Shown piece after piece: positions 2,673-21,378 of a stretch of DNA of 64,000 nucleotides. A model generated the notes under the pieces. It had not been told where the DNA came from. It ran no database searches and worked only from the letters and a program-made list of their open reading frames with translations. The position numbers and the translations under genes are program-made. The stretch comes from Flavobacteriaceae bacterium (GTDB lineage Bacteria > Bacteroidota > Bacteroidia > Flavobacteriales > Flavobacteriaceae). Location of the stretch: NCBI GenBank assembly GCA_029243385.1, contig JAQWSC010000004.1, forward strand, positions 124,001 through 188,000. Reading direction: 5' to 3'. Position 1 is the first letter of the stretch. Each line of letters begins with the position of its first letter.

Positions 2673-3926
2673 TTAAATTGAAAAGGTTTTCTTAATTGTG
2701 TCGGTATAATCTAATTTTTCCCATGTAAAAAGTTCGACCTCTTTTTCTAGGGTCCCATTATAGGGAGATTCAAATATTTTTTTTACAGTTCTGGGTGTTC
2801 TTCCCATATGTCCGTATGCAGCTGTTTCGGCATACATCGGGTTTCTTAATTTAAGTCTAGATTCTATTGCATAAGGGCGCATGTCAAAAATAGTTGCCGT
2901 TAACTTTGCGATTTCTCCATCGGTCATTCCAACGTTTGAAGTTCCGTAAGTATCTACAAGTAATGAGGTTGGTGCGGCGACACCAATTGCATAACTCACC
3001 TGAACCAATACTTCGCTACATACTCCGGCTGCGACAAGGTTTTTTGCTATGTGACGCGCAGCATAGGCAGCACTTCGATCTACTTTACTTGGATCTTTTC
3101 CACTAAAAGCACCTCCACCATGAGCTCCTTTTCCTCCGTACGTGTCAACAATGATTTTACGACCTGTGAGTCCTGTGTCTCCATGAGGCCCTCCAATCAC
3201 AAACTTTCCAGTTGGGTTTATGTGATATTTGATTTGATCGTTAAAAAGCGCCTGAATATGTTCAGGAAAAGATGCTACTACTTTTGGAATCAAGATGTTT
3301 TTGATATCCTTTTTAATCTGTGATAGCATCGCCTCATCGGTATCAAACGGATCGTGTTGTGTAGAAACTACAATGGCATCTATACGTTGCGGCTTGTTGT
3401 CGTCGCTATACTCGATTGTAACTTGAGACTTTGCGTCGGGGCGTAAATAAGGAATTTCTGTGCCCGCTCTTCGCAAGTCAGCCAATACTTGTAAAATTTT
3501 GTGTGAAATGGCCAGTGCCAAAGGCATGTAATTTTCGGTTTCATTGGTCGCATAACCGAACATCATTCCTTGATCACCAGCGCCTTGTTCTTCCTCCGAC
3601 TCGCGATCAACGCCTTGATTGATTTCTTGCGATTGTTCGTGAATTAAAGAAATGACTCCACAGGAATCTCCCGAAAATTGATACGCTCCTTGGGTATATC
3701 CTATTTTGTTAATTGTATTTCTTGCTATCGACTGAACGTCGATATAGGTTTTACTTTTTACTTCCCCTGCCAATACTACTTGTCCGGTAGTAACTAGGGT
3801 TTCACAAGCAACTTTGCTTTTTGAGTCAAAGGCTAAAAAATGATCCAGCAAACTATCACTAATTTGATCCGCTACCTTATCAGGGTGTCCTTCGCTTACA
3901 GATTCTGATGTAAATAAATATGACAT
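2673..3926 (-). CDS. metK: S-adenosylmethionine synthetase (MetK)
   Basis: MetK joins ATP and methionine into SAM in the cytosol. The protein starts at the ATG at 3926 ([17 protein letters not shown]), giving 417 residues; a longer reading from 3983 would run through the regulatory leader and is rejected. The family motifs are present: GHPDK at residues 13-17, the signature [12 protein letters not shown] at 115-126, and the phosphate-binding GGGAFSGKD. It is the first gene of metK-metY-metX-osmC. The 110 bases before it carry a promoter, a SAM-II-like aptamer and an 11-base inverted repeat ending three bases before the start codon, so feedback control by SAM is likely. Confidence 0.97.
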
Positions 3927-18575: not shown

Positions 18576-19400
18576 ATGAAGCAATATTTGGACATGGTAA
18601 ACCATGTTTTAGAGCATGGAGTTGAAAAATCAGACCGAACAGGAACAGGAACAAAAAGTGTTTTTGGGTATCAAATGCGTTTTGATTTGCAAAAAGGGTT
18701 TCCAATGGTGACTACCAAAAAACTTCATTTAAAATCTATTATCCATGAGCTTCTCTGGTTTATAAACGGAGATACCAACATCCAGTATTTAACAGAAAAT
18801 GGTGTGCGAATATGGAACGAATGGGCAGACGAAAACGGTGATTTGGGTCCCGTTTACGGTCATCAATGGCGAAATTGGAACAGCGAAGAAATTGATCAAA
18901 TAAAAGAGATTATCGAAACGCTAAAAACCAATCCAGACAGTCGGCGGATGTTAGTATCGGCATGGAATCCGAGTGTGCTTCCAGATACTTCTGTTTCTTT
19001 TTCTGAAAATGTAAGTCAAGGAAAAGCAGCGCTTCCCCCATGTCATGCTTTTTTTCAGTTTTATGTAGCCAACGGAAAACTTTCATGTCAACTCTATCAA
19101 AGAAGTGCTGATATATTTTTAGGGGTTCCTTTCAACATTGCCTCCTACGCCCTATTTACGATGATGATGGCGCAAGTATGCGGTTACGAAGCAGGCGAAT
19201 TTATTCATACTTTTGGAGATGCTCATATTTATAGCAATCATATTGAGCAGGTGAATCTTCAACTTTCCAGAGAACCCAAAACGCTTCCATCAATAAAAAT
19301 CAATCCAAACGTCACTTCTTTGTTTGATTTTACATTTTCGGATTTTGAACTCATCGACTACGACCCACATCCCCATATAAAAGGAGCGGTAGCGGTTTGA
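18576..19400 (+). CDS. thyA: Thymidylate synthase
   Basis: The 274-residue ThyA methylates dUMP with methylene-tetrahydrofolate, giving dTMP and dihydrofolate. Seen in order: the phosphate-binding RTGTGTKS loop, [26 protein letters not shown], the catalytic cysteine in [28 protein letters not shown] and the C-terminal [11 protein letters not shown] small insertion ([15 protein letters not shown]) before the catalytic loop matches Bacteroidota versions. The downstream gene contains the dihydrofolate reductase that recycles its folate product, though with its own promoter 168 bases away. Assignment is certain. Confidence 0.98.
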
Positions 19401-19537: not shown

Positions 19538-19545
19538 TATCTTTG
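19538..19545 (+). promoter_or_regulatory. -7 promoter element for the 2TM-DHFR gene (TATCTTTG)
   Basis: TATCTTTG matches the TAnnTTTG consensus and lies 23 bases before the ATG at 19569. A TTG at 19512-19514, inside the palindrome, is a possible -33 element with a longish 23-base spacer. Confidence 0.6.
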
Positions 19546-19568: not shown

Positions 19569-20474
19569 ATGTTTTTTAAAAAAAAGCAACTATCTCAAAT
19601 CGACGACGAGCAAATAGCGCTTGTAGAAAATGCTCAACAACGCATTCGACAAAAAAAACGCCTTTATAATCATTTTGTTTTTTGGGTGTTCGCTTCTATA
19701 ATTTTGTGGTTTGTTAATGTGGTCGTGGGTGTTCGTGAAGACATTCTTATTTTGGACTACCCTTGGTTTGTTTCAATAATTGTTGTTTGGAGTTTACTAT
19801 TACTCTTTCACACTTTTCAAGTCTTTATAACCAAACGTTTTATGGGAAAAGAATGGGAAAAAGAACAACTAAAAAGACTCACTGCACTCCAACAAGTCAA
19901 AATCGAAAAAATAAAACGAGCCTTGGATAAAGAAGCGCAACTCATTGCAGATTCCCAATTCCAAAACGAACAAATCCAACCAAAACAATGCATTACAATT
20001 ATTGCTGCTGCGGCAACGAATAATGCATTGGGAAAAGACAACAATCTGATTTGGCATTTATCCAATGATTTGAAAAGATTCAAAAGGTTGACCAAAGGAC
20101 ACCATGTTATTATGGGGCGAAAAACCTTTGAATCCATGCCCAAAGCCCTTCCTAGCAGAGTCAATGTCGTAATTACTAGACAAAAAGATTACCAACCCGA
20201 AGGAGCCGTAATCGTTCATTCGCTAGACGAGGCCTTGGAAATTGCTAAAGACGATGAACAACCTTTTATCATCGGGGGTGGTGAAATATACACGCAAGCA
20301 TTAAATATTGCACACCGAATTGAACTCACTCGGGTTCATGCCGATTTTGAAGCGGACACCTTTTTTCCATCCATTGACGAATCGGTTTGGAAAGAAACTT
20401 TTAAGGAAGATCATTTCAAGGATGCAAGCCATGACTATGACTTTACCTTTATTCAATACGAAAAAAATAACTAG
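19569..20474 (+). CDS. 2TM-domain protein fused to dihydrofolate reductase
   Basis: The 301-residue frame joins two parts. Residues 1-100 form a 2TM-type domain: a charged N-terminus, helix 1 at about 36-55 (FVFWVFASIILWF), helix 2 at about 64-87 (YPWFVSIIVVWSLLLLF), then an amphipathic coiled stretch to 139. Residues 141-301 are a full DHFR of 161 residues (ITIIAAAATNNALGKDNNLI, WHLSNDLKRFK with the catalytic acid, GRKTFESMP, IIGGGEIY), which reduces dihydrofolate to tetrahydrofolate. There is no Met at the domain junction and no frame break; the only nearby ATG is out of frame. The enzyme would be tethered to the inner membrane, facing the cytosol. In relatives I recall the two being separate adjacent genes, so this looks like a gene fusion. 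Confidence 0.88.
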   Translation: MFFKKKQLSQIDDEQIALVENAQQRIRQKKRLYNHFVFWVFASIILWFVNVVVGVREDILILDYPWFVSIIVVWSLLLLFHTFQVFITKRFMGKEWEKEQLKRLTALQQVKIEKIKRALDKEAQLIADSQFQNEQIQPKQCITIIAAAATNNALGKDNNLIWHLSNDLKRFKRLTKGHHVIMGRKTFESMPKALPSRVNVVITRQKDYQPEGAVIVHSLDEALEIAKDDEQPFIIGGGEIYTQALNIAHRIELTRVHADFEADTFFPSIDESVWKETFKEDHFKDASHDYDFTFIQYEKNN

Positions 20475-20487
20475 TTAAACATATTTT

Positions 20488-21378
20488 ATGAATGCATTTG
20501 TTTTCCCGGGACAGGGAGCTCAGTTTATTGGAATGGGACACGACTTGTACCAACAATCGTCTCAGGCAAAAAAACTTTTTGAAACCGCCAACGCTATTTT
20601 AGGGTTTTCTATAACAGACATCATGTTTGAGGGTACTTCTGAAGACTTAAAACAGACTCGAGTTACACAGCCTGCAATATTTTTACATTCGGTAATTCTT
20701 CACGCCGTGATGAATCACACCGTACAGCCAAATTGTGTTGCTGGACATTCTTTGGGTGAATTTTCAGCTTTAGTAGCCAACGGCACACTTACTTTTGAAG
20801 ACGGATTGCGATTGGTTTCCAAAAGAGCTTTGGCGATGCAAAAAGCCTGTGAAAATACTCCAGGAACTATGGCTGCCGTTTTAGGGTTGGAAAATGGAAT
20901 TGTTGAAGAAGTCTGCAAAAATACTGAAGGTGTTGTCATAGCGGCTAATTACAATTGCCCCGGGCAACTGGTTATTTCAGGAGCTGTTCCAGCAGTTGAG
21001 AAAGCATGCGAAACTTTAAAAGAAAAAGGAGCTCGAAGAGCCTTGTTGTTACCCGTAGGCGGCGCATTTCATTCTCCGCTTATGGATGCTGCTAAAAAAG
21101 AATTGGCTGAAGCCATCAACAATACACAATTTAACACACCTCATTTTCCAATTTATCAAAATGTGACTACAACTGCCGTTTCAGACGCTAGTCAAATTCA
21201 ACAAAATTTAATTGACCAACTAACAGCACCCGTCAAATGGACGCAAAGCGTTGAGCAAATGATTGCCGATGGAGTTACACATTTTAAAGAAATAGGCCCT
21301 GGCAAAGTGCTTCAAGGGTTGATTAAAAAAATTCATCGTGAAGCAGAAACTTCTAGCGGCGAATTTCAAGAAAGCTAA
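20488..21378 (+). CDS. fabD: Malonyl-CoA:ACP transacylase (FabD)
   Basis: FabD moves malonyl from CoA to acyl carrier protein, supplying the elongation unit for fatty acid synthesis. The 296-residue protein has FPGQGAQFIGMG at the N-terminus, the catalytic serine Ser88 in GHSLGEFSALV, the malonate-binding QPAIFLHS region, and the catalytic histidine in VGGAFHSPLMDAA. The C-terminal GPGKVLQGLIKKI is also typical. It starts 13 bases after the DHFR fusion gene and may be co-transcribed. Its stop lies three bases from the convergent PqqB-like gene, with no terminator visible between them. Confidence 0.96.
   Translation: MNAFVFPGQGAQFIGMGHDLYQQSSQAKKLFETANAILGFSITDIMFEGTSEDLKQTRVTQPAIFLHSVILHAVMNHTVQPNCVAGHSLGEFSALVANGTLTFEDGLRLVSKRALAMQKACENTPGTMAAVLGLENGIVEEVCKNTEGVVIAANYNCPGQLVISGAVPAVEKACETLKEKGARRALLLPVGGAFHSPLMDAAKKELAEAINNTQFNTPHFPIYQNVTTTAVSDASQIQQNLIDQLTAPVKWTQSVEQMIADGVTHFKEIGPGKVLQGLIKKIHREAETSSGEFQES

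Follow-up and report, generated by a model that had tools for sequence, protein, structure and literature searches.

Dihydrofolate reductase (DHFR or FolA) is a well-known drug target and is usually regarded as a freely soluble housekeeping enzyme. In protozoa and plants, it forms part of a bifunctional protein (DHFR-TS) in which it is fused to thymidylate synthase. In a Flavobacteriaceae bacterium, we examined a DHFR that is also joined to a partner protein. In contrast to DHFR-TS, the partner here is a membrane domain, and thyA (thymidylate synthase) is a separate neighbouring gene. Like the soluble bacterial enzyme, this protein has a complete DHFR domain whose closest structures are DHFRs, but the domain lacks its own Met1 and is preceded, in the same chain, by a 2TM domain and a helical linker. 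The location of thyA beside folA is also seen in other Bacteroidota: of 23 loci that lie outside the family, 9 have a thyA that ends 2-22 nt ahead of the DHFR domain match. However, none of those 23 loci has a 2TM match close to DHFR. Our literature searches found no description of a 2TM-DHFR fusion protein, although the domain architectures in InterPro or UniProt may catalogue it, and the matching passages of PMC9976891 and PMC11237479 have no bearing on such a fusion.

The window that we analysed is a stretch of 64,000 nucleotides, and the features of interest are listed in Table 1. The fused frame begins with ATG and runs for 301 codons with no internal stop. Its product matches 2TM (69.9 bits, against a cut-off of 24.8) and DHFR_1 (206.2 bits, against a cut-off of 25) from Pfam, and the latter match covers positions 2-159 of the 159 positions in the model. 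These are the only Pfam domains found in the chain, and a thymidylate synthase domain is absent. The fusion also matches many DHFR models from NCBIfam, each below its own cut-off (among the 25 of 31 matches listed). The solved sequences closest to its DHFR part are DHFRs, such as 8uvz (E = 6.4e-45), which is the DHFR of B. subtilis according to the title of the entry. W162 and D167 are invariant across 24 fused proteins and are aligned with the same residues in 8uvz; we take these to correspond to Trp22 and Asp27 of E. coli DHFR (the active-site tryptophan and the catalytic acid).

Table 1. Features of the 2TM-DHFR locus, in window coordinates.
Feature	Coordinates	Strand	Evidence
thyA (thymidylate synthase), upstream neighbour	18576..19400	+	Pfam PF00303, NCBIfam equivalog models
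2TM::DHFR fusion gene, 301 aa	19569..20474	+	open frame, Pfam, relatives
2TM domain (PF13239), residues 20-104	19626..19880	+	Pfam, AlphaFold, conserved residues
Helix 94-133, following helix 2 and predicted to be cytoplasmic	19848..19967	+	AlphaFold, comparison with 2TM paralogues
Junction, residues 134-141	19968..19991	+	pLDDT, alignment
Complete DHFR domain (PF00186), residues 142-299	19992..20465	+	Pfam, PDB sequence match, Foldseek
Acyltransferase gene (fabD-like by our reading), downstream neighbour	20488..21378	+	Pfam PF00698

Within the window's genus, dN/dS between the window's genome (G000) and G043 was 0.090 for the 2TM part, 0.043 for the linker (which has few sites), and 0.078 for DHFR. 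These values are low in each segment, so all parts of the fusion have been under purifying selection in this genus, and together with the domain scores they exclude a chance origin of the fusion. The initial annotation had described a genuine 2TM-linker-DHFR fusion with membrane helices at residues 36-87 and DHFR at residues 141-301. With one frame and both domains far above their cut-offs, we agree, and these limits are correct within a few residues. We also ruled out an error in sequencing or assembly, as the frame layout is identical in G043 (87% identity over residues 1-301), the fusion is present in 122 further genomes, and altogether 124 of 293 genomes from the family encode both domains in-frame.

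These counts are from a survey of 299 genomes of the window's family, of which six had no DHFR match and were dropped. We collected the DNA around DHFR from all of the remaining 293 genomes and classified them by whether the 2TM match was in the same frame as DHFR (fused), directly upstream of it (adjacent), or neither (anchor-less). We found 124 fused, 116 adjacent, and 53 anchor-less genomes. As originally supposed, many relatives do have separate neighbouring genes for 2TM and DHFR. However, the fusion is not unusual, as had been thought: among the three states, it is the one found most often in this sample, and it is certainly not unique to the window. Among 54 loci from titled records, 26 are fused, 3 are adjacent, and 25 have no 2TM match; the fused loci include Bizionia, Winogradskyella, Lacinutrix, Gaetbulibacter, Confluentibacter, and Aestuariibaculum. 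We also searched 296 genomes from the order and 295 from the class, the family itself included, and no fusion from outside the family was among the matches listed, which are the stronger ones. We also note that two species from one genus differ in their state: G042 is fused and G263 is adjacent (loci L093 and L215).

In the 53 anchor-less genomes, DHFR evidently works without 2TM beside it: 17 of these genomes have a 2TM match elsewhere (above the cut-off in 16 of them), and 36 have no 2TM match at all. Except for G269 (3.6 Mb), all of these 36 have a genome of 1.1-2.7 Mb, which means that small genomes often lack the partner. The window's own genome retains the 2TM partner despite its size of 1.69 Mb. 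We used a crude hydrophobicity scan to look for an overlooked 2TM at the 53 anchor-less loci, and no upstream frame with two helices was found at any of them. At one of these loci (G186), DHFR is preceded by just one hydrophobic stretch.

We predicted the structure of the whole fusion with AlphaFold from 24 aligned fused proteins (mean pLDDT 78, pTM 0.52). The model has helices at residues 13-53, 66-88, and 94-133. Confidence is weak at 130-137 (pLDDT under 50), and a normal DHFR fold follows, with block means of 83-93 from residue 171 to residue 300. Given the pTM of 0.52, the placement of the 2TM and DHFR domains relative to each other is not defined. If the 2TM part is modelled alone, then helix 13-53 is followed by a continuous helix from 66 to 135, which leaves the kink at 89-93 uncertain. 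Foldseek with the whole fusion gave 8f09 (E = 5e-21, TM-score by target 0.90), and the 50 matches listed were all DHFR structures. The 2TM part has no significant relative among solved structures by Foldseek (best E = 1.8).

The 2TM part has two predicted helices, a short loop between them, and a positive-inside pattern of charges. Across 238 sequences, there are on average 6.15 lysines and arginines before helix 1, 0.89 in the loop, and 6.69 after helix 2. Because the positive charge is on the outer flanks, with little of it in the loop, both termini are predicted to be cytoplasmic, and so is the DHFR. An inner-membrane anchor for DHFR, as the initial annotation had it, is thus predicted from the charge pattern, with the enzyme on the cytoplasmic side.

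At the junction, Cys141 occupies the position of Met1 in free DHFRs, so the usual start codon is indeed missing. Just two of the 124 fused genes (those of G149 and G276) retain a methionine at this position. We looked for a conserved internal start among the 124 fused genes and did not find one. An internal start that yields a soluble DHFR had been raised as something that might overturn the idea of a membrane anchor, and we see no conserved signal of this kind.

To compare the folA-linked 2TM part to other 2TM proteins, we searched for it in 148 genomes of the order with a profile. There were 18 matches of at least 118 bits, and by their coordinates all 18 are at DHFR loci; the next best match had 57 bits. 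The profile was built from folA-linked sequences and favours that class, but the gap between 118 and 57 bits is still wide. All of the strong matches are in the window's family, in 18 of the 21 family genomes that were searched. By profile score, the folA-linked 2TM is a subfamily of its own, which in the genomes searched occurs only beside or within DHFR. Its conserved residues are H35, N50, W66, W74, H81, W96, and E97. Some of these are common to 2TM paralogues (conservation of 0.88 for W74, 0.82 for H81, 0.62 for H35, and 0.53 for N50; also W96 and E97), whereas Q28, K29, L32, F36, Q100, L104, and Q108 distinguish the folA class. In helix 94-133, which follows the second membrane helix, Q100, L104, Q108, and I112 are conserved in the folA-linked class. 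Fused and separate copies conserve the residues of the folA class to about the same degree. This is the best hint that the separate 2TM protein has the same role as the domain in the fusion.

We also noticed that in a number of Flavobacteriaceae, a 2TM-positive protein of about 450 amino acids is followed by up to four short tandem 2TM genes. Such arrays were seen at L393, L395, L397, L400, and similar loci, and they include many of the 2TM genes of anchor-less genomes. By our reading, the protein of about 450 amino acids is putatively kinase-like.

Where 2TM and DHFR are encoded separately, their genes are very close together. In 104 of the 116 adjacent pairs, the gap from the stop codon of 2TM to the start of DHFR is 20 nt or less, and 60 pairs overlap, 52 of them by 4 nt. 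(The start codons of these DHFR genes were chosen by a script and comprise 102 ATG, 7 GTG, and 7 TTG.) Tiny gaps or 4-nt overlaps are an arrangement that is typical of translational coupling. Among loci with enough upstream sequence (57 of the 293 have too little), we also counted those in which thyA ends no more than 1 kb upstream: these were 82 of the 122 fused, 10 of the 64 adjacent, and 21 of the 50 anchor-less loci. The 2TM-folA pair therefore persists in places where thyA is not nearby, which speaks against thyA being the reason for the pair. Hence the original suggestion that the anchor localises dTMP synthesis together with thyA looks weak.

How often the state has changed can be estimated from trees. 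In a joint tree of 238 rows (two of 240 were left out because their 2TM matches were short, and rows lacking 2TM are not included), there is a fused clade with 114 members, which holds no separate pair, and there are seven further fused lineages, for a total of 8 changes. A more careful tree was built for a subset of 52 of these rows, comprising 13 fused rows from the main clade, all 9 other fused rows, and 30 adjacent rows. It also gave 8 changes, of which at least 5 are forced by well-supported (starred) branches, and of 200 bootstrap trees, 0% had just one change. A single fused clade was rejected (p-AU = 4.36e-07), as this constraint costs 226 log units.

A tree of DHFR alone gave 10 changes between fused and not fused, with weak support in places; in this tree, L128 (G367) was labelled as an outgroup although it is a member of the same family. 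Some anchor-less DHFRs are nested among the fused ones. G079, whose DHFR has a plain methionine start at the usual position, is beside fused rows (SH-aLRT 89), G092 and G294 are beside a fused row (SH-aLRT 92), and six anchor-less rows are grouped with 117 fused rows. The anchor therefore seems to have been dropped again in some lineages. The number of changes alone cannot separate fusion from fission. But the outgroup loci lack 2TM at this position, and the fused genes of G149 and G276 keep a methionine at the old start, so we favour fusion over fission.

The window's genome (1.69 Mb in 15 contigs, 99% complete) has one match to DHFR and one match to 2TM, and both are the fusion. There is no match to ThyX in this genome. 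Since the genome has a single DHFR and no match to ThyX, and the window has a single thyA, the tethered DHFR should cover the regeneration of tetrahydrofolate for the whole cell. We tested 80 of the 124 fused genomes for a second DHFR, and 79 of them have none; the exception is G109, with a weak partial match of 31.7 bits. So, judging from gene content, the tethered DHFR should be active.

On balance, we favour the explanation that DHFR is kept on the cytoplasmic side of the inner membrane by a dedicated 2TM partner, through a covalent link where the two are fused. A 2TM subfamily dedicated to DHFR would keep the enzyme at this face, with both termini of the fusion in the cytoplasm, and helix 94-133 and the weakly predicted stretch beyond it would hold DHFR off the bilayer. 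The separate 2TM proteins would bind DHFR, and fusion would make an existing complex permanent. Our best guess is that the benefit, and the most likely one, would be to concentrate or regulate DHFR at the membrane near putative partners. Several points count against this explanation: DHFR works without 2TM beside it in the 53 anchor-less genomes, the 2TM part has no solved relative, proteolysis at the junction could still release soluble DHFR, genes that overlap or nearly touch can fuse by accident, and the anchor-less DHFRs that are nested among fused ones count against a strict need for the anchor. A more tentative possibility is that in Flavobacteriaceae the folA-specific 2TM acts as a dedicated subunit of DHFR that both tethers and regulates it at the membrane, probably as an oligomeric sensor of a membrane or metabolic signal, and that it was independently fused several times. 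The main rival, which we consider rather unlikely, is that the fusion was neutral. The 2TM protein would have a job unrelated to folate and be co-transcribed with folA, the loss of a stop codon would have joined them, and the linker would spare DHFR. The overlaps and tiny gaps do make joining easy, 10 of the 116 pairs are separated by just one in-frame stop, anchor-less DHFRs nest among fused ones, and DHFR is generally taken to tolerate an N-terminal fusion. If the two were unrelated, though, we would not expect the folA class of 2TM to be found only at DHFR (all 18 strong matches), or the pair to persist without a nearby thyA. Neutrality is also at odds with the lack of separate pairs within the 114-member fused clade (in the tree that omits rows without 2TM) and with the dN/dS of the linker in the window's genus, albeit from few sites.

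It is improbable, in our view, that 2TM is the active element, that is, an oligomeric membrane protein that acts as a sensor, channel, or carrier of a ligand (related to folate or not) and thereby regulates or feeds DHFR. Such a role would be consistent with the near-invariant H35, N50, W66, W74, and H81 in or next to the helices, which go beyond the needs of an anchor, and with the arrays of related 2TM genes beside a larger 2TM-positive protein. But several of these residues are common to paralogues and hence have no specific link to folate, the 2TM part resembles no solved fold, and a pair of helices would have to oligomerise to make a pore. We regard it as highly improbable that soluble DHFR alone matters, made from an internal start or by cleavage of a precursor, with the fused frame being incidental. 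An in-frame ATG does lie between codons -12 and +3 relative to the DHFR start in 17 of 124 fused genes (42 of 124 if GTG and TTG are counted too), the old-start methionine is kept in G149 and G276, and in the window there is an in-frame ATG at Met92, a conserved residue (0.81). However, 10 of the 18 ATGs near the DHFR start are at +2, inside the first strand of the enzyme, nearly all of the fused genes have lost the methionine at the DHFR start itself, and the closest in-frame start codon ahead of DHFR in the window is a TTG at codon 119.

If DHFR is indeed held by a dedicated 2TM partner, then folate reduction in these bacteria would be located, and perhaps controlled, at the membrane, and this would be the first function for a 2TM subfamily. 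The putative membrane partner has been kept by most of the sampled genomes of one family and has repeatedly been fused to DHFR, which suggests an unstudied association of a membrane protein with this essential enzyme. Because fused, adjacent, and absent states are mixed within one family, the idea could be tested between close relatives.

As for the neighbouring genes in the window, 168 nt separate thyA from the fusion and 13 nt separate the fusion from the acyltransferase gene. A TAnnTTTG box at 19538-19545, which presumably resembles the -7 element of Bacteroidetes promoters, is 23 nt ahead of the ATG of the fusion. The longer motif TTTG-N15-24-TAnnTTTG, which we take to be the Bacteroidetes-type promoter, was found upstream of 2 of 117 fused genes and in 5 of 1170 random stretches (these are small counts). 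In some relatives, the interval between thyA and the fusion is occupied by a small gene, or two of them, with a TonB C-terminal domain (L034:3200-3844; L036:2428-3297 and 3319-3912; 34-44 bits).
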